Positions 3,565 to 50,211 of a DNA stretch of 56,325 nucleotides are shown in pieces. The DNA comes from a virus, in IMG/VR virus record IMGVR_UViG_3300031524_001649, positions 1-56,325 of that record. The stretch is one strand, 5' to 3'. The stretch's first letter is position 1. Every line of letters starts with the position of its first letter. The notes beneath the pieces are model-generated. The model was given only the letters and a program-made list of their open reading frames with translations, had not been told where the DNA came from and searched no databases. A program made the translations under genes and the position numbers.

Positions 3565-4017
3565 TCAGCCTTGGTTGGCGGCCATCTTGAGTCCCGGCGT
3601 CATGCGCTTGACCGGCTCCACGCTGAGTTGCCGGCTGATCTGCTTGAGGGCTTGGACGTACTTGCCTTGGACCTCCAGCGTGCGGTAGTGAGCCTGCCGT
3701 TCGGGGTTCGATAAGTTGGCCTCGTCTACCGCCTGGTTGCGCCGAAAGGCGCGGAACAGCTTGAAGCGGGCCAAGTCGCCGTGGCGAGCGTTGTACACGG
3801 CCGCCTCAGAGTCGGTGAGCACTCGCAACCCGCTCCCTTCGGTCTTGATTGTTGCGGGCCGGCCCAGGCACCGTAGCCCGTGTTCGATTTCCTGCCGGAG
3901 CTGCATCAGGGCGAACTGGTACTCGCGGGTGCCCTCCATTTCGCCGGTGATTTCCTCAATCTCGGTGGGCGAGAGGTAATCGCCCTTCTGCAAATGCTGC
4001 ACGTCGATGATCTTCAT
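3565..4017 (-). CDS. Hypothetical phage protein downstream of the hairpin array
   Basis: I place the start at the ATG at 4017 (MKIIDVQHLQ), with GAGGAG 4 bases upstream. The 150-residue product is soluble and mixed charge, with helical segments such as REYQFALMQLRQEIEHGL. The first hairpin of the 4040-4633 repeat array ends only about 20 bases upstream of the ribosome binding site, so the array would lie in its 5' leader if transcription enters from the upstream gene. No family recognised. Confidence 0.68.
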   Translation of the reverse strand: MKIIDVQHLQKGDYLSPTEIEEITGEMEGTREYQFALMQLRQEIEHGLRCLGRPATIKTEGSGLRVLTDSEAAVYNARHGDLARFKLFRAFRRNQAVDEANLSNPERQAHYRTLEVQGKYVQALKQISRQLSVEPVKRMTPGLKMAANQG

Positions 4018-4039
4018 AGTTCTCCTCGCATTGGAAGGG

Positions 4040-4089
4040 GGTTCATTCAAGGAAGCCCTCGCTTGCGAGAAGGCTTCGTGGAAGGAACC
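4040..4089 (-). repeat. Hairpin unit 1 of the array
   Basis: Outer arms GGTTC and GAACC, middle TTC/GAA segment, and inner stem TCGC-TT-GCGA. This copy uses TCGC/GCGA where copies 2, 3 and 5 use CTCT/AGAG-type stems, a compensatory change. It lies about 20 bases upstream of the ribosome binding site of the 3565-4017 gene. Confidence 0.8.
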
Positions 4090-4132
4090 TTACCACGCCC
4101 TACCATGCCGCACCCGACCGGACCTTACCGTG

Positions 4133-4182
4133 GATTCATTCCAGGAAGCCCTCTCGTGAAAGAGAGCTTCGTGGAAGGAACC
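4133..4182 (-). repeat. Hairpin unit 2 of the array
   Basis: Same architecture as unit 1, with inner stem GCCCTCTC versus GAGAGC and loop GTGAAA. The last CC starts the pentamer phase of the next spacer. Confidence 0.8.
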
Positions 4183-4250
4183 ATGCCCAGCCATACCTTA
4201 GCCCGCCCCGCTCAGTCCAGCCTCGCCACGCCTTACCGAAACACGCCGTA

Positions 4251-4302
4251 GATTCATTCAAGGAAGCCCTCTCGTTGAAAAGAGGGCTTTGTGGAAGGAA
4301 CC
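4251..4302 (-). repeat. Hairpin unit 3 of the array
   Basis: The inner stem GCCCTCT / AGAGGGC is perfect, with an enlarged loop CGTTGAAA. The unit is 52 bases, two longer than the others, with the extra bases in the loop. Confidence 0.8.
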
Positions 4303-4353
4303 TGACCGTACCAGACCCCACCTTGCCGCGCCGTACCCGGCCCCACCACAGAA

Positions 4354-4403
4354 GATTCATTCGAGGAAGACCTCGCTTACGAGAGGGCTTCGTCGAAGGA
4401 ACC
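4354..4403 (-). repeat. Hairpin unit 4 of the array
   Basis: The inner stem uses CCTCG-CTTA-CGAGAGG, the same stem type as unit 1. Outer arms and flanking GGAA blocks are conserved, although the distal arm has GTCGAAGG rather than GTGGAAGG. Confidence 0.78.
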
Positions 4404-4494
4404 GTGCCTTGCCTCACCAAGCCCAACCCCGTCCCGCCAAACCGCACCATACCGGACTCGGTTTCACCCGGCCCCGCCACACCATGCCCTAAAA

Positions 4495-4544
4495 GGTTCA
4501 TTCCAGGAAACCCTCTCGTGAAAGAGGGCTTCGTGGAAAGAACC
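4495..4544 (-). repeat. Hairpin unit 5 of the array
   Basis: The inner stem CCCTCT / AGAGGG is perfect with loop CGTGAA. Outer arms GGTTC and GAACC pair fully, with TTCCA/TGGAA between them. It is the best-paired complete unit. Confidence 0.8.
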
Positions 4545-4611
4545 ACGCCTCGCTTCGCCGCGCCACACCTGGCCCCGCCACACCTCATCTCGCCCCGCCA
4601 TGCCTAGTTCC

Positions 4612-4633
4612 GGCCCTCTCGCAAGAGAGGGCC
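4612..4633 (-). terminator. Perfect 9-bp hairpin just after the upstream gene
   Basis: GGCCCTCTC-GCAA-GAGAGGGCC is a perfect stem with a four-base loop, 17 bases past the stop of the 4651-5226 gene. It resembles the inner core of the array hairpins. There is no T-run after it on the minus strand, so it could be an attenuator or mRNA end-protector rather than a classical intrinsic terminator. Confidence 0.5.
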
Positions 4634-4650
4634 AGAGCCGAGTTTCTCCA

Positions 4651-5226
4651 TCAGGCTGCCGCCACAATCTCGAAGCGGCCGAAGCGCGGCCGTCCATCCA
4701 ACAGGCCCGCCATGCGCCCGGCGGTGTCCACGAAGTCGATCACTTCCTTGGCGTCGAACACCTCCTCCAGGTAGTGGACGGTGAACTTGCACTCCCAATT
4801 CTTGAACATCGGCCGTGTCCGCATCACGCGGCTCTGTCCCACGACCACCCCGGCCACGTAGCGGAACCGCTCGTCTTCCCACAGGGTCTCGGGCGTCTTG
4901 GGACCGTCGTAGATCACCGGGAAATTGCCATCCACGATGATGGCGCTCTTGGCGTCCTTTCCCTTCTTCGTTTTCTTGGCCCCGGCGACGATGGTGCCTT
5001 CAATGACTTCGCCCGGAAGCACAGCCCGCCCCTGGTCGTCCGCGTACAGGCCGCCGAGGAACTCCAGGCGGGCCAGTTCGGCATGGTCTTCGTCGGTCTT
5101 CTTCCGCTTGCTGGTGACGGCCTTCATCGCCTTGGCAAACTTGTTCATGGGGTTGGCAAGTTGGCCGTTGTGCATCAGCAACGGGGCGACACCGCGAATG
5201 TGGAAGTCGATGGTCTTGTAGCTCAT
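4651..5226 (-). CDS. Conserved phage protein with faint RAMP/Cas7-like pattern
   Basis: I choose the ATG at 5226 (MSYKTIDF), which has GAGG 9 bases upstream, giving 191 residues. The N-terminus HIRGVAPLLMHNGQLANP and the C-terminal GLLDGRPRFGRFEI recall proteins that use a ferredoxin-like RAMP fold with a Gly-rich loop near the C-terminus. The centre has YADDQGRAVLPGEVIEGTI and RTRPMFKNWE. I believe related proteins occur in many phages as hypothetical proteins, but cannot confirm it here. There is no CRISPR array or other Cas gene nearby, so a nucleic-acid-binding role is speculation. Confidence 0.7.
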   Translation of the reverse strand: MSYKTIDFHIRGVAPLLMHNGQLANPMNKFAKAMKAVTSKRKKTDEDHAELARLEFLGGLYADDQGRAVLPGEVIEGTIVAGAKKTKKGKDAKSAIIVDGNFPVIYDGPKTPETLWEDERFRYVAGVVVGQSRVMRTRPMFKNWECKFTVHYLEEVFDAKEVIDFVDTAGRMAGLLDGRPRFGRFEIVAAA

Positions 5227-6068: not shown

Positions 6069-7343
6069 TCAGGATGACCCCCACACCGCGCGATGGGGGT
6101 AGTCGAGCGGCGAGAGGCCGTTTTCGGCGGCGATGCGCTGGCAATAGTCCCGGTCCAGTTCGATCAGCGTGCAAGGCAGATTGATGCGTTTACACACACG
6201 CAACGTCGTGCCCGTGCCGCCGAAGGGGTCCAAGACCTTGCCGCCCGGTGGCGTAGTCAGCTTGACACACCGCTCGACCAGCCCTTCGTTGAGTTGCGTC
6301 GGGTGCCAGGTGCGGCGCTGCTTGCTGTTGCCCGTGACCCGTGGAAAACTGAACACGTCGCTCAGACTGAGTTTTCCGGTGGCGTGCTGCCACGTCTTCC
6401 CTTCACGAATGCTGCGGATTACCGTGTCGCTCACGCCATATTGCGAGGCCAACTCGACATTTGAGCCGGTGGATTGATAGATGCGGACGGCATCTTCATT
6501 GCTCAGTTTTGCCAGTCCGTTCTGCTCCCCCTGGGGATGCTGTCCGCGGCCTTTGGCTTCCTTGTCGTTGTTATTGTCAGCATCGGAGCCGATAAACAGG
6601 TGGGCTGGATTGCAGCAGCCCGGATTGTCACAGCTATGCAGTACCAATTGGCCTACTGGGTCAGTGCCGTGTGTCAAACGCCACATAAGGCGTGTTGCCA
6701 CGTACAGCTTCTCGCCGATTCGGAAGCGGCCGTAGCCTTCGCGTTTACCGGCCAGCCACTCCCAGCATTCCGTCGCTCCGCGGCGGCCGATTTTGGCCAG
6801 GAACCGTTCAACATCCTCGGGGCTCCAAGGCGGCAGCGGAAGTGTGTTCCGGTCGTAACAATCACCCGAAGCCACGTCGCCGGGGACGCGCCCGCGGGGA
6901 TCGGCCCGCTTGTCGCCGTTCTCTTGCCGCCAACTCGGTACGCGGACCGCATCCGGGTAGAGTGGGGCGTGGCACCAGCGGAGCCGCAAGAGCGGCCGGT
7001 GATTGTTCCCCAGGTCATGGTGGTTGTGCTGCCCAAAGGTGAACGTTTGGACGCACGGCTTGGCCTCCAATTCTCCGGCCCGGAGCCCGACGATCTCGGT
7101 GACAATCCGGCCGACCTCGAAGGTCCATTTCGAGTTGTAGCTGAACCAGACCGTGCGGGCCTTGAGCACGAAGGCTTGGAGCCAGCGGCGCAGCATCGCT
7201 ATGTACTCACCCTCGTTCAGCCGATCCCGGTAGCTGTCGTAGCCCAAGCCGATGTTGTCAGGCGGGTCCCCGAACAGGGTATCCACGGGCGCAAGGGTTT
7301 CGAGCACGTCCAGGCAGTCGCCGTTATAGAGGTGATACTTCAC
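6069..7343 (-). CDS. DNA methyltransferase with in-frame HNH endonuclease insertion
   Basis: The start is GTG at 7343, overlapping the TGA of the upstream gene. The 424-residue frame is a beta-class N4/N6 methyltransferase: motif IV FGDPPDNIG at residues 24-32 and, after the insertion, WHPTQL then the AdoMet motif LDPFGGTGTT near the end. Residues 158-330 are not methyltransferase but an HNH homing endonuclease domain (WEWLAGKREGYGRF, HSCDNPGCCNPAHL, then a DNA-binding region LASQYGVSDTVIRSI). The junctions read GDV-ASGD and SDV-FSFPRV, with an 8-bp repeat GCGACGTG at both ends. No stop or frameshift interrupts the frame, so one fused protein is expected unless something removes the insert. 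It is unclear whether methylation survives. Confidence 0.85.
   Translation of the reverse strand: MKYHLYNGDCLDVLETLAPVDTLFGDPPDNIGLGYDSYRDRLNEGEYIAMLRRWLQAFVLKARTVWFSYNSKWTFEVGRIVTEIVGLRAGELEAKPCVQTFTFGQHNHHDLGNNHRPLLRLRWCHAPLYPDAVRVPSWRQENGDKRADPRGRVPGDVASGDCYDRNTLPLPPWSPEDVERFLAKIGRRGATECWEWLAGKREGYGRFRIGEKLYVATRLMWRLTHGTDPVGQLVLHSCDNPGCCNPAHLFIGSDADNNNDKEAKGRGQHPQGEQNGLAKLSNEDAVRIYQSTGSNVELASQYGVSDTVIRSIREGKTWQHATGKLSLSDVFSFPRVTGNSKQRRTWHPTQLNEGLVERCVKLTTPPGGKVLDPFGGTGTTLRVCKRINLPCTLIELDRDYCQRIAAENGLSPLDYPHRAVWGSS
6354..6872 (-). mobile_element. HNH homing endonuclease insertion inside the methyltransferase
   Basis: 519 bases, exactly 173 codons, all open. It encodes an HNH_3-like nuclease: CWEWL, then CDNPGCCNPAHLF-GS with conserved Cys/His/Asn, followed by a NUMOD-like or HTH-like DNA-binding segment. 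GCGACGTG occurs at both boundaries, consistent with a target duplication or a recombination junction. It lacks intein ends (no N-terminal Cys/Ser splice site, no C-terminal HN). It is too short and fully coding to carry a standard group I or II intron. Confidence 0.75.
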
Positions 7344-7588
7344 TTGTGGCTCCGTTTCACGGCCGCATAGGTGCCAACCCAGTTGCCCAGGCCGTAGGCG
7401 ATCACAGCGGGAATGCACCTTTCCACGATCAAGACCGTGGAAAAGAGCGTGCAGACGTAAAGCACGACGGCCAGGTTGGCAGCCAGAGCGGCGCACCGCC
7501 GTTGCACGGACTCGACGCACCAGGTCCACACGTAATCCAGCACTGTCCCGGCCACGAACGCGAGGAAGAAAATGCCGACATCGGTCAT
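7340..7588 (-). CDS. Small two-helix membrane protein
   Basis: An 82-residue protein with two transmembrane segments (IFFLAFVAGTVLDYVWTW near the start, LAANLAVVLYVCTLFSTVLIV in the middle). It overlaps both neighbours by a few bases (GTGA with the methyltransferase, ATGA upstream), so it is tightly coupled. I think similar small proteins occur in other phages. Function unknown. Confidence 0.7.
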   Translation of the reverse strand: MTDVGIFFLAFVAGTVLDYVWTWCVESVQRRCAALAANLAVVLYVCTLFSTVLIVERCIPAVIAYGLGNWVGTYAAVKRSHK

Positions 7589-7839
7589 TGTCCGGGCAAC
7601 TCCAATCGGGGCTTCGTTGGGGATGGGACGGCCTTCCGCAACCCAAGAGTAAGAACAGGGACCAAATCGGCGTCGCCGAAGACCTCGCCGCGCAAGGTGT
7701 ATTCCAGCGTGATCGAGGCGTCTTCCGTGCCGTGCTTGTTGATGGCTGCCTCCAGGGCACGGAAGATTTCGGCGAGACGGGCCGGTGTGAGCTGGGCCAG
7801 TTGCACGCGCTGAAGGAGCAGAGGAGGAATTGCAAACAT
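7585..7839 (-). CDS. Hypothetical protein
   Basis: The ATG at 7839 is preceded by AAGAGG with 5 bases spacing, better than the GTG at 7845. The 84-residue product has helical N-terminal LTPARLAEIFRALEAAINKH, then a strand and a basic Pro-rich end. No family recognised. It lies in a tight operon between a RecB/Cas4-like nuclease and a membrane protein. Confidence 0.65.
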   Translation of the reverse strand: MFAIPPLLLQRVQLAQLTPARLAEIFRALEAAINKHGTEDASITLEYTLRGEVFGDADLVPVLTLGLRKAVPSPTKPRLELPGQ

Positions 7840-13386: not shown

Positions 13387-13932
13387 CTATCGCCGCCTCT
13401 GGATCGCCGTGCAGTACGCGCCGTTCAGCGAGCTGTTCTGCAACAGTCGGGCGTTCTCCTCGCCGTAGGCCAGAAGCACGGATGGACCACCGGAGTTGCC
13501 CTTGGCCCTGGTTCCGTCGGGTCGATAGAAGTACAGTCGCCCCTCCAGAAACAAAGCGCCGACAACCTTGCCCCAGACATGCTCGAAGAACATCGCCGTC
13601 TCCGTCCGCGCGAAGACCAAGGCGATTCCGTTGCCGTGCCGGCTCAGGTGATCCAACCACAGACCGGTCTGTTGACCATAGGGCGGATTGAGCCAGATGC
13701 GGCCGAACCACCGCAGTTGCAGACCATCTTGCGGCGGGGCGTAGTGGTGCTTGGCCGTCATCCACGGCTGGCCTGGAGCGGCACAAGGGTCGAGGTCGAA
13801 GGACCCCAGTGTGTCGATTATTTCCGGCGGCGTCAGCCAGCAGTCGGTTTGTCCTTGCACGGCCCGGGTATGGCTTCCGATACCTGTCTTCGCTCCATGC
13901 CTCGCCCGTGCGAGCTTGACAGGTTCAGTCAT
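13387..13932 (-). CDS. Phage N6-adenine methyltransferase (Dam-like)
   Basis: A 181-residue member of the phage DNA N6-adenine methyltransferase family: DCWLTPPEIIDTLGSFDLDPCAAPGQPW near the start (TP-x-E and FDxDPCA motifs) and GRIWLNPPYGQ as motif IV (NPPY). These short enzymes methylate GATC or related sites to protect phage DNA. The gene overlaps the next methyltransferase by 8 bases and precedes the D12 gene by 12. Confidence 0.88.
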   Translation of the reverse strand: MTEPVKLARARHGAKTGIGSHTRAVQGQTDCWLTPPEIIDTLGSFDLDPCAAPGQPWMTAKHHYAPPQDGLQLRWFGRIWLNPPYGQQTGLWLDHLSRHGNGIALVFARTETAMFFEHVWGKVVGALFLEGRLYFYRPDGTRAKGNSGGPSVLLAYGEENARLLQNSSLNGAYCTAIQRRR

Positions 13933-15247
13933 AGGTATCCGCCTGAAAGGTCGTGTGAACGCCGATTTCGATCCGCTGCCGAGCCGTCTCGAAGCTTTCG
14001 GGTTCGAGTTCTATCCCGACGAACCGATTGCCGGTCAGCAGTGCGGCGATGCCCGTCGAGCCCGACCCCATGAACGGATCGAGGACCAGCCCGCCGCCGG
14101 GTGGCGTGACGAGGCGGCATAGATATTCCATGAGTGCGCGAGGTTTGACGGTGGGGTGGTTGTTCTCGACCTGGCCTTCACACGTGCGGTCTCGCTTCGT
14201 GGCCTTGGCGCAGTAAAAGAAGCGTGAGGCACCGCCTGAATCGCCATGTTGGTTGTGCGGCCCGGAATGCCCGCGAAGGAAACTGGTCACGTTCTCACCG
14301 GGATACGGGGCGATAAGCCGTTTCATCGCGCCGCTTTTCGTGATGCCGCTTTGCTCGTCGAGCAACCTGCCCGCTTCCTCGTCCAATAGCAGATTGGCTG
14401 GCCAACGTCCCTTGGCATCACCGCCGCGTGGGCCGGGCGTCGCAGCGAAATTGGTCGAACCGCGGTCGGAGTAACGCTTGTTGGCCGTTGTCTCGCCGTC
14501 GCGCAGCCCGCCCTCACCGGTACCGATTCGCGAGCCGTCGATGTTCAGGCCCGCGACGCCATGGCGCTGCGCGTTCTCGGCGAATGTGCCATCGAGTGGC
14601 TTCATTGCCAGGATAATGGGTTCCCATGCCGGTTTCAGAGACGAGCCCCAGCCGTCCCAACGCCTGGCGATTTCGGTGGCCGGCGCCGTGTCGAGGATCT
14701 CCACGTTGCCGGTCTTGCCGTGCCGCTGGCGATTTTGGAAACTGTCGCCGCGGATGTCGGGTTGCTGGCGGCGGCCGACGCTTTCCCGGGTCGCCCCGGC
14801 CAGCTTGTCGAGGGCCTTCGACATATCGTGCGACTTGGGGAAGCCGGAACCGTAGAGCCACATCAGGCAATCGCGGATCTCGAAACCGGCATCTTCGATA
14901 GCACAAGTCAGACGGTGAAAAGTCCGCGTGCCACCAAACGCCAGGAGCATCGCCCCCGGCTTCAGCATTCGGAGCACCTCGGTCCAAAAGTCGGACTGAA
15001 AGGCCGTGTCGCCGCCGTCCCAGGTCTTGCCCATGAAACCCCGCGAGCCGATCCGCATGCGGCCAAAGGGTGTTTCCGGATCGTTGTTTCGCGGGCTTCC
15101 CTTTCGGCTCGCCTGCGTAAGGTGATAGGGCGGGTCGCAGACACATGCCGTGAACTGCCCAGCCTCTAGTGAAGGGAGCACCTCGCGGGAGTCCCCTTGG
15201 TAAATCGTGGCCTGGTCGAACGTGATGGACATGTGTTTGTCACTCAT
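13925..15247 (-). CDS. DNA modification methyltransferase (N4-C or N6-A)
   Basis: The ATG at 15247 (MSDKHMS) gives 440 residues. Motif IV is CVCDPPYHL, and the C-terminal motif I is LVLDPFMGSGSTGIAAL, the beta-class order. Between are AFGGTRTFHRLTCAIEDAGFEIRD, WLYGSGFPK and NHPTVKPRALMEYL, typical of phage modification methylases. It is a paralogue of the 28935-30011 product, with the same central blocks. The ~60-residue region between the catalytic halves differs, probably giving different specificity. Confidence 0.9.
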   Translation of the reverse strand: MSDKHMSITFDQATIYQGDSREVLPSLEAGQFTACVCDPPYHLTQASRKGSPRNNDPETPFGRMRIGSRGFMGKTWDGGDTAFQSDFWTEVLRMLKPGAMLLAFGGTRTFHRLTCAIEDAGFEIRDCLMWLYGSGFPKSHDMSKALDKLAGATRESVGRRQQPDIRGDSFQNRQRHGKTGNVEILDTAPATEIARRWDGWGSSLKPAWEPIILAMKPLDGTFAENAQRHGVAGLNIDGSRIGTGEGGLRDGETTANKRYSDRGSTNFAATPGPRGGDAKGRWPANLLLDEEAGRLLDEQSGITKSGAMKRLIAPYPGENVTSFLRGHSGPHNQHGDSGGASRFFYCAKATKRDRTCEGQVENNHPTVKPRALMEYLCRLVTPPGGGLVLDPFMGSGSTGIAALLTGNRFVGIELEPESFETARQRIEIGVHTTFQADTYD

Positions 15248-15268
15248 GGAATCAACCAAAGGAGAAGT

Positions 15269-15327
15269 CGAAGAATGGTGCCAACCGTCGATCAACACGC
15301 CCCAGCCAACCCGAATGAGGAGAAGTT
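15269..15327 (-). promoter_or_regulatory. Two-copy leader element, copy 2
   Basis: On the minus strand: CTTCTCCTCATTCGGGTTGGC, a short gap, then GGGCGTGTTGATCGACGGTTGGCACC, matching copy 1 at 12446-12514. The rest of the 15248-15390 gap shows no other feature. It lies between the ligase stop and the methyltransferase start. Confidence 0.5.
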
Positions 15328-28934: not shown

Positions 28935-30011
28935 CTACATTGAAGCCAGACGGGCGGCGGCAATTTCGCAGTGCCGCTCTTCCGACTCGATGCCGATGCA
29001 AGCACGGCCGAGCGTCTTGGCCGCCAGCAGGGTCGAGCCGCTGCCGGCGAACGGGTCCAGGACCAATCCGCCAGTGGGCGTGGACAAGAGGGTCAGGAGG
29101 TACCGCATCAGCTTTAAGGGCTTGACGGTGGGGTGGTCGTTCTTTGGCCCCCGGACCGGATTGCGTTCCTTCGTGGCAGCCTTGGCGACATAGAAGAACC
29201 GACTCGCGCCGCCCGTTCGCTCGTCCAGCACACGCGCCGCCTCTTCGTCCAAGAGCAGGTTGGCCGGCCAACGCCCGGACGCCAAGTCGCCTGCGGGCGA
29301 CCGTTTAGCGATTTTCCAGCCGGCGTCCGTGATGGAGTCTGAGGGCGTGCGGATTGTGCTGGCCGTGCCGATCCTGCTGGCTTTGACGTTTATTCCGGCC
29401 ACGCCCCAGGTCTCAGCGTTGTGGGCCAGCGTGCCATCCAGCCGCTTCATTGCGAGGATGATGGGCTCCCAGGCTGGCTTGAGCGCATTGGCCCAACCGG
29501 TCCATTGCTTCGCCAATTCCGTGGCCGGAGCCGTGACGGCGCACTCCGCGGCCGGATTGTGCAAGTCGCCATAGACCTCGTTCGTGCGGCCATTGTCCGC
29601 CAACGAATAGCCGGGCCGGCCCAGCTTGGTGCCGACGACCTCGCGCCGGGCTCCCTTCGCTTTGTCGATCAGCACGCCGATGTCCGGGGCCTTGGGAAAG
29701 CCCTGACCATAGAGCCACATCAGGCAGTCACGAATCGCCCATCCGGCATCTTCGATCGCGCAGGCAAGCCGGTGGCACGTTCGCGTGCCGCCGAAGGCCA
29801 GCATCAATGCGCCCGGCTTGCAGACCCGCTGAATGGCTTTCCAATACGGGACGCCGGGAACACCGTGGTCCCATTCATGTCCCATGAAGCCGAGGCCGTA
29901 GGGAGGATCGGTACAAACGAAGTCTACGGAGGCTTCCGGCAGCGTCGGTAGCACCTCGCGGTTGTCGCCGCAGTAGAGCGTGATGTTGTCTTTCTCGTAG
30001 TAAGGCTTCAT
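28935..30011 (-). CDS. DNA modification methyltransferase (N4-C or N6-A)
   Basis: The ATG at 30011 (MKPYYEKDN) gives 358 residues. Motif IV is VCTDPPYGLG; motif I LVLDPFAGSGSTLLAA is at the C-terminus (beta class). It shares LAFGGTRTCHRLACAIEDAGWAIRD, WLYGQGFPKAPD, and NDHPTVKPLKLMRYL with the 13925-15247 product, so the two are paralogues. It overlaps the upstream gene by 4 bases (ATGA). It is likely to modify phage DNA against host restriction. Confidence 0.9.
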   Translation of the reverse strand: MKPYYEKDNITLYCGDNREVLPTLPEASVDFVCTDPPYGLGFMGHEWDHGVPGVPYWKAIQRVCKPGALMLAFGGTRTCHRLACAIEDAGWAIRDCLMWLYGQGFPKAPDIGVLIDKAKGARREVVGTKLGRPGYSLADNGRTNEVYGDLHNPAAECAVTAPATELAKQWTGWANALKPAWEPIILAMKRLDGTLAHNAETWGVAGINVKASRIGTASTIRTPSDSITDAGWKIAKRSPAGDLASGRWPANLLLDEEAARVLDERTGGASRFFYVAKAATKERNPVRGPKNDHPTVKPLKLMRYLLTLLSTPTGGLVLDPFAGSGSTLLAAKTLGRACIGIESEERHCEIAAARLASM

Positions 30012-30532
30012 CGTTGCGGCTTGTATTCCAGGAGGAGCGTGCGGTCGGGTGCCTCGCGGGCGCGGTAGTCGCTCCACACGTTCAGGCCCGCGCCGCAGAA
30101 AAGGCCGTAGACCTTGTTGAAGCCGGCGCGTACGGGCGGCTCGGCGTTCGTTACGGACCCTGCCGCCACGGCGTCGCGCCACTGGGCCAAGGTTCCCGTC
30201 ACCACGGCCGCCGTGACGCCGCGAACCGTGGTCTCGGCCGTGACGAAGGGCATCCCGGCGCAGCGTTCCAGAATGTCGAGCACGTCTCGCTCGTCGGCGA
30301 CGACAAACACGCTGAACGACACATGCGACAAGAGGTTTGGCGCGAGGCCCACCGGGGCCTTCTGGTCGCAAATCGCAGCCAGGCAGCTCAGGAACTTTTC
30401 CGGCTCGGACAGCTCGCGCGACGAAGCATCGGCCGCACGCGCCGGGGAATAGCCTAGCACGTGCAGGCACGCGCCCAGGAAGGCGCGAAAGTTGACGGCC
30501 GGCGTGGTGATGAGCAACACTTCGGGATTCAT
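30008..30532 (-). CDS. Hypothetical protein
   Basis: The ATG at 30532 (MNPEVLLITT) gives 174 residues, predicted alpha/beta: VNFRAFLGACLHVLGYSP, FSVFVVADERDVLDILE, VTAAVVTGTLAQWRDAV, NKVYGLFCGAGLNVWSDYR. The last two recall small hypothetical phage proteins. The ribosome site is weak. It overlaps the methyltransferase start by 4 bases. The region 30533-30640 upstream has no convincing gene. Confidence 0.6.
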   Translation of the reverse strand: MNPEVLLITTPAVNFRAFLGACLHVLGYSPARAADASSRELSEPEKFLSCLAAICDQKAPVGLAPNLLSHVSFSVFVVADERDVLDILERCAGMPFVTAETTVRGVTAAVVTGTLAQWRDAVAAGSVTNAEPPVRAGFNKVYGLFCGAGLNVWSDYRAREAPDRTLLLEYKPQR

Positions 30533-30634
30533 CGCGGAGCCAGGGGAAGTGTCCACGCGAGCGGCGGAACTGCTCCCGCCATTCACGCAGACCGGTGATG
30601 CCCGCCCACGAACAGTGCAGCGGGTGTGTTCTCC

Positions 30635-30686
30635 AAGAAACCCCGCCGGGGCCCCGGGCCACAGTACCGGGGCATGTCCGGCGGGG
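30635..30686 (-). terminator. Strong hairpin terminator downstream of the 30699-31436 gene
   Basis: Two nested perfect stems: outer CCCCGCCGG/CCGGCGGGG (9 bp), inner GCCCCGG/CCGGGGC (7 bp), loop of 9 bases. On the minus strand it is followed by TTTCTT (30635-30640). It comes 12 bases after the stop of the upstream gene, so it is a good intrinsic terminator or attenuator. Confidence 0.65.
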
Positions 30687-30698
30687 AGCAAATGACAC

Positions 30699-47417: not shown

Positions 47418-48443
47418 TCAGCCCACCTCCACTCCAAACTGGACGGCGTTGATCGCCGCGGCCGACCACGCGCTGCCGGTATTGGGGTCTGTCTCGCTGA
47501 TCCGCGTCGCGGTCACATAATTCGTCAACACGATCGCCTGGGCCGCGCCCGCACTCTCGGTTCCCCCAGACTTGATCTGCGTCTTTACGTTAAAGGTATT
47601 GAGGTCCGTGTCGCGGCAATCGGTGTTGATCTGGACGCCCACGATCGCGCCCACCGTGGGCAGCGACCCGTAGTGCCAAAGCTCTTCCTGACCCGTCGTC
47701 ACGCTTTCCAGGTAGGTGGCGTCGTCGTTGGCCGGATTCTCATTGACCATCGTATAATGGTCCCCGGAGCCGCTGGGCGTCCATTGGGACTGGTCGCCAG
47801 CCGCATTGGGGAAGATCGCCAAGACTTTCACGTTGCCGAGGAAGTCGTTGTTGGCGGACCCGCTGCCATCGCAGACGTAGAAATCGTCGAAGAAGGGGAC
47901 GTAACCAAAGGCGATCGCCAGCTTGACGATGTTATGGTAGTTGTCCGAGCCCGCCTTGGTGTTCCCCGTGTAGCTGAACACGACCTGGCTACTGCTCCGC
48001 ACCACAATGGAGCCGGCCGCAGCGTCACAGACAACCTTCAATTCGAGGTACGCCCAGAAGCCCAGCCGCACCTGTGCCCCCGAGGTGGTGCCGAGGTGGG
48101 TGCTGCCCAAGTACACGTCCAGTTCCGTGCTCCCGGGCGTGTAGGTAAGGTTGACGCCCAGGGTCGAGTTATCCATGAAGCCAATCACCGGCCCGGGGGC
48201 AGTGTACGGCTGAAAGCCGATGCCCGCGATCAACGTATTGCTGGTGGTAAGTGCCGGGGTGTGAATTTCCCAGGAACCGGAGGTCGGTTGAATGCCCCAG
48301 CCGCCCGTGCGGCCTAGCACTAGCTGGCAAGAACTGGCGGCGTTGGAGTAAGCGTAGCGGCGCGCCAGACAGTCGCTCGGCAACACGCTGTTGAGGTTAC
48401 CGGTGCCATAGCCCTCGAACCCGTCGATCCATAATAGCGCCAT
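47418..48443 (-). CDS. Tail fibre-like protein, paralogue 1
   Basis: 341 residues from the ATG at 48443. Opens MALLWIDGFEGYGT. Contains VGVQINTDCRDTDLNTFNVKTQIKSG and TETDPNTGSAW, seen in nearly the same place in the next product. The fold looks all-beta (lectin/jelly-roll-like). Probably a receptor-binding or fibre subunit. Confidence 0.7.
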   Translation of the reverse strand: MALLWIDGFEGYGTGNLNSVLPSDCLARRYAYSNAASSCQLVLGRTGGWGIQPTSGSWEIHTPALTTSNTLIAGIGFQPYTAPGPVIGFMDNSTLGVNLTYTPGSTELDVYLGSTHLGTTSGAQVRLGFWAYLELKVVCDAAAGSIVVRSSSQVVFSYTGNTKAGSDNYHNIVKLAIAFGYVPFFDDFYVCDGSGSANNDFLGNVKVLAIFPNAAGDQSQWTPSGSGDHYTMVNENPANDDATYLESVTTGQEELWHYGSLPTVGAIVGVQINTDCRDTDLNTFNVKTQIKSGGTESAGAAQAIVLTNYVTATRISETDPNTGSAWSAAAINAVQFGVEVG

Positions 48444-48529
48444 GATCGCACCTTTTTTGGAGCCGCTGCCAAAACTGTCCCGCTGCCAGCCCAGTGACCG
48501 TGGGAAACCAAGGTTGTGTTCGATCTCCT

Positions 48530-49561
48530 TTAGGCCAGTTGCACGCCGAATTGGGCCTCGGCCAGCGCCGTGGGCGTCCAAGGGGAGCCCGTGTTGGGAT
48601 CAGTTTGGCAGACCCGCGACTGCGTTAAATACGCCATACTACCGATCACCTGCGGTGTGCCGGCACTGGTGGCCGTGCCCGATTTAATCAACGTCTTGAG
48701 GCAGAAGTTCTCGGCGTCCGTCTCGCGGCAGTCCGTATTGACCTGAATCCCCAGCACTGAGGGGCAAGACACCGGGTCTTGATAATTCCAGAGTTCCTCC
48801 GCACCCGACTGGTCGGTCTCGACGTAGCTGGCGTCGCTGTCCAGGGGATTTTCATCGACGTATCCATAGTGGGCACCGCCACCGCTGCCGGTCCATCCAG
48901 CCGCGTCTCCGGCGGCGTTGGGCAGCAGGAGGCCCACCTGCACGTCGCCGAGGAAGTTGTTGTTCACAGTGTCGCTATTGTCGCAGACGTACCAGTCGTC
49001 ATACGTCGGTATCCAGCCACCGGCTGCCGCCAGCGCGACGACATTATGGTAGTTGTCGGGACCGGCCTTGGTATTGACACCGGTAAGTGAGAGCTTCGTT
49101 ACGCCACCGACCCGGACCTCGACCGTGCCGGCCGTGGCATGACACTTGACCTTCACCTCGACGTAGGACCATGTGCCTTGCGCCAAGCCGGCCCCGCTGG
49201 TCGTTCCCAGCAGGGTGTAGTTGTATCCGCAGTAAACCTGTATTTCGCCACTACCGTTGTAGTTGAACGATACGCCCAGGGTCGGGCCATCATAGAGCAA
49301 GAGGATCGGGCCGCCGTTGTAATACGGATTGATTCCCAGTCCGCAAATGAGGGTGTCAGCGGCCGTCAACGGTGCGGTACGGATGGTGAAGGTACCGCTG
49401 TCGCCCCGCATGGCGTAGCCGCCCAGGCGGCCGGCACAAATGATGTTCCACTGCGGCACGACGCTGTATGGATACTTGCCGGCCAAGTAAGTTGTGGGCG
49501 TTGACTGACTACCAAGACTAGTGCCCAGGGCCTCAAAGCCTTCAATCCAGAGTAGCGCCAT
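48530..49561 (-). CDS. Tail fibre-like protein, paralogue 2
   Basis: 343 residues from the ATG at 49561: MALLWIEGFEALGT, GIQVNTDCRETDAENFCLKTLIKSGT, CQTDPNTGSPWTPTALAEAQFGV. It aligns along most of its length with the 47418-48443 product, but they differ strongly in the middle, as expected for host-range determinants. Two tandem paralogues suggest duplicated receptor-binding proteins. Confidence 0.72.
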   Translation of the reverse strand: MALLWIEGFEALGTSLGSQSTPTTYLAGKYPYSVVPQWNIICAGRLGGYAMRGDSGTFTIRTAPLTAADTLICGLGINPYYNGGPILLLYDGPTLGVSFNYNGSGEIQVYCGYNYTLLGTTSGAGLAQGTWSYVEVKVKCHATAGTVEVRVGGVTKLSLTGVNTKAGPDNYHNVVALAAAGGWIPTYDDWYVCDNSDTVNNNFLGDVQVGLLLPNAAGDAAGWTGSGGGAHYGYVDENPLDSDASYVETDQSGAEELWNYQDPVSCPSVLGIQVNTDCRETDAENFCLKTLIKSGTATSAGTPQVIGSMAYLTQSRVCQTDPNTGSPWTPTALAEAQFGVQLA

Positions 49562-49635
49562 GGCACGCCTCACACAAGAACGGGGCCGGGCCAGCCACAA
49601 GACGCCGGCCCAGCCCACGAGGGAGAACACCCAAA

Positions 49636-50211
49636 TTACGCGCTGACGGTGTAGGTGACCTTCAACTGGTCGCCGTTGGCCACGGTCACGGTGCCGCTGG
49701 CGAACTGGGCCTCGGCCCACAGCGTCCCGCCACCGCTGTGATCGTTCTTCGTGCTGGGGGCCGAGCCGCCGCCGACCAGGAACAGGCCGTAGACGCTTCC
49801 CGAGCCATTGATGTCGAAGACCGCGGGGCTGGCGTTGGTGACAGATTGGGCGGTGGACGTGCCGTTTCCCCACCCCAGCCGCGTGGTCTCGGTGAAGGCC
49901 ACGAACTCGTTCCAGCCGTTGGTGCCGCCGATCTGGGCATACGTGTCGCCCGCCGCCAGGGTCGGCGTCCCCGAGCCGTCAATCAGCCCGATGAACCACG
50001 CCGTAATGGGCGTGGCGGAGTTGAACATCACGTTGAAGAGCTTGTTCTTCCCCTCGTTGACGACGGAGTTGGGGAACTCGTACTGGCCGATCTTCTGGCC
50101 GTTGCGGAAGTGCTCGACCACGAACCGGCCGCGGGGCTGAAGATGCTCTTCGCTAGCGCGGGCACGGACCATCGAGCAGCCCGCCGACTGCTGAACTCTC
50201 ATGTTGTCCAT
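49636..50211 (-). CDS. Structural protein, tail- or head-associated
   Basis: The ATG at 50211 (MDNMRVQQ) has AGAGGA 5-6 bases upstream; 191 residues. Contains GRFVVEHFRNGQKIGQYEFPNSVVNEGK, ATPITAWFIGLIDGSGTPTLAAGDTY, then a beta-rich Gly/Ser/Thr-rich end. The WFIGLIDGxGxxxLAAxDT pattern recurs in phage structural proteins. Located between tape measure and fibre genes. Confidence 0.66.
   Translation of the reverse strand: MDNMRVQQSAGCSMVRARASEEHLQPRGRFVVEHFRNGQKIGQYEFPNSVVNEGKNKLFNVMFNSATPITAWFIGLIDGSGTPTLAAGDTYAQIGGTNGWNEFVAFTETTRLGWGNGTSTAQSVTNASPAVFDINGSGSVYGLFLVGGGSAPSTKNDHSGGGTLWAEAQFASGTVTVANGDQLKVTYTVSA

Follow-up and report, generated by a model that had tools for sequence, protein, structure and literature searches.

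The closest described counterpart of the element analysed here is VIPR (Viral Interference Programmable Repeat), a phage-borne system of RNA-guided DNA recognition related to CRISPR and described in a 2026 preprint (PMC13142463). According to that preprint, the VIPR guide RNAs (vrRNAs) are made of alternating GGY/NN repeats followed by a structured 3' tail and guide the protein Vipr to DNA; the NN dinucleotides pair with double-stranded DNA, with one base skipped per repeat, and transcription is repressed. The preprint gives tract lengths of 9-16 YNNGG repeats, describes the natural targets as mostly satellites and prophages, and mentions "a related consensus" in place of GGY in some VIPR types.

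The stretch of DNA that we analysed (hereafter the window) is the 56,325-nucleotide IMG/VR record IMGVR_UViG_3300031524_001649, a virus record that carries phage genes for a DNA polymerase, a primase, a helicase and tail proteins; a search with the DNA polymerase gave no phage match. Two tandem paralogues of PHROG 2448 (function unknown), probably tail-region proteins, are found at 47418-49873, and three DNA methyltransferase-like genes occur at 6069-7835, 13925-15298 and 28935-30698, one of them fused to an HNH endonuclease-like domain.

The array of hairpins and pentamers at 4040-4633 is almost certainly the vrRNA guide array of a VIPR system, with vipr and an accessory gene flanking it on either side (Table 1). 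Protein homology, a RAMP fold, strand and gene order, the GGY/NN grammar, structured tails and vap homology were all obtained here. Two genes on the minus strand flank the array, vipr upstream and a vap-like gene downstream; YNNGG tracts beside vipr, a structured 3' tail on each tract and a vap gene occur together at one locus.

The product of the upstream gene matched the solved SUSP1 Vipr (PDB 36pp chain D) with a phmmer E-value of 2.2e-36, a profile of 40 homologues matched PDB 36pp at 3e-47, and the protein is 40% identical to its homologue in phage dune. Its AlphaFold model (pLDDT 97.2), used as a Foldseek query, had as its best solved matches the Csm3/Cas7 RAMP subunits of type III CRISPR (E=6e-6), and the 36pp match together with this fold match identifies a RAMP homologue with an RRM core. 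A preliminary description, made from the letters of the DNA alone, had proposed repeated protein/RNA contacts for the array, in keeping with this identification, and was right in sensing a real, structured RNA array linked to a protein. The protein falls in phrog_4652, listed as function unknown, and searches of Pfam, NCBIfam and PADLOC returned nothing convincing for either vipr or vap.

Read on the minus strand (4633-4040), the array holds 64 pentamers in five tracts of 9, 14, 10, 18 and 13 repeats, and 55 of the 64 are perfect YNNGG. The strict 5-base phase of CC on the opposite strand, as first described, is real: in all five spacers it exceeded every one of 2000 dinucleotide-preserving shuffles, and the best 50-bp windows for CC phase across the whole 56-kb record fall nearly all inside the array. 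The three bases between were said to vary freely, but one of them is always a pyrimidine (Y, C or T, in 64/64 repeats) and the variable part is NN only. The GG is altered in nine repeats, all within tracts 2, 4 and 5 and mostly by G to A changes. Information content across YNNGG is 1.00, 0.19, 0.02, 1.66 and 1.43 bits (64 repeats).

Each of the five tracts has a hairpin on its 3' side on the minus strand. The extent of the array and its composition of five hairpins of about 50 nt plus a sixth, short one had been given correctly: the long hairpins, which have a mean column identity of 83%, fold with z-scores of -4.2 to -7.5 against shuffles, and the short one with -5.2. The latter lies between vipr and the first tract, and its role may possibly be that of a 5' boundary or processing element. 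The inner stems, said to differ between units and still to pair, do pair (in 94% of cells over the five aligned copies), but covariation was not demonstrated in these copies, with one pair changed on both sides and 316 of 500 shuffles doing as well. An Rfam search of the array gave no family and no hammerhead, either at the gathering threshold or at E<=10, and a VIPR array interspersed with hammerhead ribozymes was rejected on the lack of any such match between the tracts (E<=10). The hairpin-sequence pattern had three matches over IMG/VR, of which the two inspected were unrelated, and blastn against phages gave weak partial matches only. YNNGG tracts with structured tails are the architecture of VIPR vrRNAs, and as judged from sequence they favour the proposal of a minus-strand non-coding RNA under selection other than for coding. 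The statement that no described element is built in this way, fair for a reader without tools, is superseded, since VIPR vrRNAs share the architecture (PMC13142463).

Table 1. Features of the predicted VIPR locus (window coordinates)
Feature	Positions	Strand	Remarks
vap-like accessory gene, 150 aa	3565..4017	-	directly after the array
Tail 1 hairpin	4040..4089	-	z -4.9
Guide tract 1, 9 repeats, all perfect	4088..4132	-	
Tail 2 hairpin	4133..4182	-	z -5.5
Guide tract 2, 14 repeats, 10 perfect	4181..4250	-	
Tail 3 hairpin	4251..4302	-	z -4.3
Guide tract 3, 10 repeats, all perfect	4301..4350	-	
Tail 4 hairpin	4354..4403	-	z -4.2
Guide tract 4, 18 repeats, 15 perfect	4402..4491	-	
Tail 5, 3' hairpin of vrRNA 5	4495..4544	-	last GG of tract 5 shared; 4493-4544 folds at -32.1 kcal/mol, z -7.5
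Guide tract 5, 13 repeats	4543..4607	-	NN = TA AT GG GA GA GT GG CA GT GC GA GA GT
Short perfect hairpin, same core as tails	4609..4636	-	fold -23.5 kcal/mol, z -5.2
vipr, 191 aa, RAMP-fold RNA-binding protein (predicted)	4651..5226	-	homology and AlphaFold model

Homologues of the product of the gene after the array also come after vipr in six loci (L125, L022, L055, L032, L051 and L018). When its profile was aligned by hhalign with that of the SUSP1-type vap family, built from the genes that come after vipr in phage dune and in proteobacterial prophages, the match had a probability of 96% and E=4e-9, and the gene is therefore taken as vap1-like; by this profile match it is distantly related to the accessory gene found after vipr in SUSP1-like phages. 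A fold search with the vap-like protein gave no significant match.

For the working of the locus we carry over, by analogy with the preprint's other VIPR members, the RNA-protein complex, the 1-nt skip code and repression, and we infer the expression, processing and targets of this phage's vrRNAs. A minus-strand transcript would take in vipr, the array and vap, in that order, and would yield five vrRNAs, each with 9-18 YNNGG repeats and then a hairpin tail. Vipr would coat the tract, presumably with about one subunit per pentamer, and hold the GGY triplets, while the exposed NN dinucleotides would pair with double-stranded DNA and pass over one target base between one dinucleotide and the next. 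Once bound, the complex would repress transcription of its targets, which are most likely to be genes carried by competing phages, satellites or prophages; the vap protein would assist. Some guides may be weak, given the nine repeats with altered GG.

Certain observations count against assignment to VIPR. The GG is broken in nine of the 64 repeats; tract 4, with 18 repeats, exceeds the reported range; no sigma-70-like promoter was found for the locus, and no target was found for any of the window's five guides. Exact patterns of 9 or 10 repeats for guides 1-4 with a 1-nt skip had no match in IMG/VR, such exact-match scans being strict; an 8-repeat pattern for guide 5 with the same skip had more than 120 matches, whose extension was chance-like. 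A scan of 381 tracts against 2.4 Mb of DNA gave no clear excess for any skip, and genomes of the Aminicenantes phylum, picked through one Vipr neighbour, yielded a single site with three mismatches, which was not taken as a target.

The array might regulate the phage's own genome or its host and not competitors. Repression, the activity described in the preprint, would suit such a role, but none of the skip rules gave a self-target above chance in the window, and related clades target satellites and prophages according to the same text (PMC13142463); we consider this unlikely. Slightly less probable still is that the locus is decaying or inactive and that the guides of tracts 2, 4 and 5 are without function, for which the altered GG pairs, mostly G to A, and the missing targets could be cited. 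Tracts 1 and 3 are perfect, however, the Y is intact throughout the array, both vipr and vap keep open, conserved reading frames, every tail folds, and interrupted tracts are present at other VIPR loci too.

A guide from a Pseudomonas relative had plausible targets under the 1-nt skip rule alone. Tract 3 of L253, a Pseudomonas juntendi locus, has 12 repeats and specifies 24 bases; read with a 1-nt skip, it had eight sites with three or fewer mismatches in 199 Pseudomonas genomes. Four of the eight had at most two mismatches of 24, all of them within a single gene family and with the skipped base falling on the wobble position. In the same genomes a 2-nt skip and the reversed controls each gave 0 sites, and the contiguous (0-nt skip) pattern gave two copies of one site with three mismatches. 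The number of sites expected by chance is estimated at about 0.5 at three mismatches and 0.02 at two, assuming equal base frequencies, and codon bias would raise it; the four best sites are homologous and therefore not independent. This result agrees with the 1-nt skip code and the Pseudomonas targets of the preprint. The vrRNA at 3690-3760 of L253, read with a 1-nt skip, points to a small conserved gene with the motif SDIARHLEQIRIFSGNF..RHRHLGASHGVVGSR in several Pseudomonas genomes (L267, L268, L271 and L272 at 1501).

The guide-array reading is further supported by the company that such pentamers keep. The pattern (CCNNN)x10, which holds no protein information, retrieved at least 120 contigs when scanned over IMG/VR, so that relatives of the array, one of the expectations of the preliminary description, do exist elsewhere. 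Among the matches listed, the flanking DNA encodes a Vipr homologue in 81 of 120 contigs; the other 39 include several that are low-complexity runs or are located at the end of a contig. At the vipr-bearing loci examined, 252 GG-runs share the strand of vipr and one lies opposite, 250 of the 252 are within 1.5 kb of vipr, and GG is followed by C or T in 91% of cases. Bacterial genomes, scanned independently, yielded 14 Vipr loci, the majority of them in Proteobacteria, and GGYNN tracts are present at most of the 14. One viral contig (L002, 3870-4000) carries a period-6 variable repeat (GGTTAC/GGTGAC/GGTTTC) after a gene, its likeness to the pentamer arrays being superficial.

An RNA or DNA element that forms G-quadruplexes or acts as a protein sponge, unrelated to guides, is very improbable: GG every five bases would allow the stacks that were first suggested, but G-quadruplexes need neither an invariant Y nor a free NN, and they do not account for the RAMP gene present in 81 of 120 contigs that the pattern by itself had retrieved. 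The other suggestions made at the time, a replication or packaging signal, a mobile repeat or a protein sponge, are each unsupported. A functionless satellite repeat produced by slippage, as some other scanned contigs with low-complexity runs might suggest, can practically be dismissed, given a near-random NN beside a fixed GGY, structured tails and a strand and gene linkage of 252:1.

Compared with the type II VIPR of Escherichia phage SUSP1/Felixounavirus (PMC13142463; PDB 36pp), the locus has a homologous Vipr, GGY/NN tracts, a structured 3' tail and a related downstream accessory family. It differs in the placing of the vrRNAs, all five of which are found between vipr and vap here, against one upstream of the genes and three behind them in SUSP1. 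Each of its tails is a long, simple hairpin, unrelated in sequence to the pseudoknotted tail of SUSP1, and its vap is only distantly like SUSP1-type vap1. With the Class 1 CRISPR RAMP complexes (Csm3/Cas7) it shares the RAMP fold and an array of guides that each carry a structured handle; unlike them, it lacks near-identical repeats with contiguous spacers, has a non-contiguous code, and encodes one small RAMP and one accessory gene. A CRISPR array was rejected on similar grounds: the tails do repeat, but the GGY grammar runs through the tracts between them, and the RAMP next to the array is Vipr.

In a tree built from 90 Viprs, the window's protein belongs to a 40-row starred set with SUSP1-like, Pseudomonas and mycobacteriophage proteins. 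It is not part of the starred SUSP1/Pseudomonas clade but sits in a branch beside it, near L022, L055, L125-L128 and L261; type II VIPR is the SUSP1/P. fulva clade. Its nearest neighbour is the Vipr of L261, a Candidatus Aminicenantes MAG in which 3599-4740 holds mixed GGY/GGA repeats (31% A) and one array on the opposite strand. L022 and L055, a starred sister pair beside the window's branch, resemble the window in Vipr (54% and 47% identical), in the order vipr-array-vap and in their vap family, and differ in having other tails and fewer vrRNAs. In two close relatives GGA/NN replaces GGY/NN, at L125 (5790-7420) and L126 (4060-5200), where 137 of 137 repeats have A, the tail is their own (CTCTTCTTTCCGCCGTCGCAGAAATGTGACGGCGGAACTTCCAA) and Vipr is about 50% identical to that of the window. 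This is a visible change of the fixed triplet; the preprint's mention of "a related consensus" for some types suggests that the change may already be known to its authors. Long RCCNN arrays of more than 100 pentamers, with few or no obvious hairpin tails, lie by vipr in L076 (7600-9000) and L025 (6300-6900), and may represent the preprint's staggered array type. We propose, tentatively and at somewhat less than even chance, that the window, L022, L055, L125-L128 and L261 make up a branch of VIPR next to the SUSP1 clade, with changes in tail shape and even in the fixed triplet; this would imply that the way Vipr recognises the third fixed base can evolve.

VIPR, described only recently, is an RNA-guided system whose code is non-contiguous and a proposed ancestor of the CRISPR RAMPs. 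The present locus, spotted from raw sequence alone, brings in a phage whose gene order and tail are different. Going from pentamer pattern first to protein second recovers VIPR independently of the structure search of the preprint, and PHROG family 4652 can now be named Vipr. If the proposed branch is real, evolvable recognition of the third base could give orthogonal VIPR pairs.
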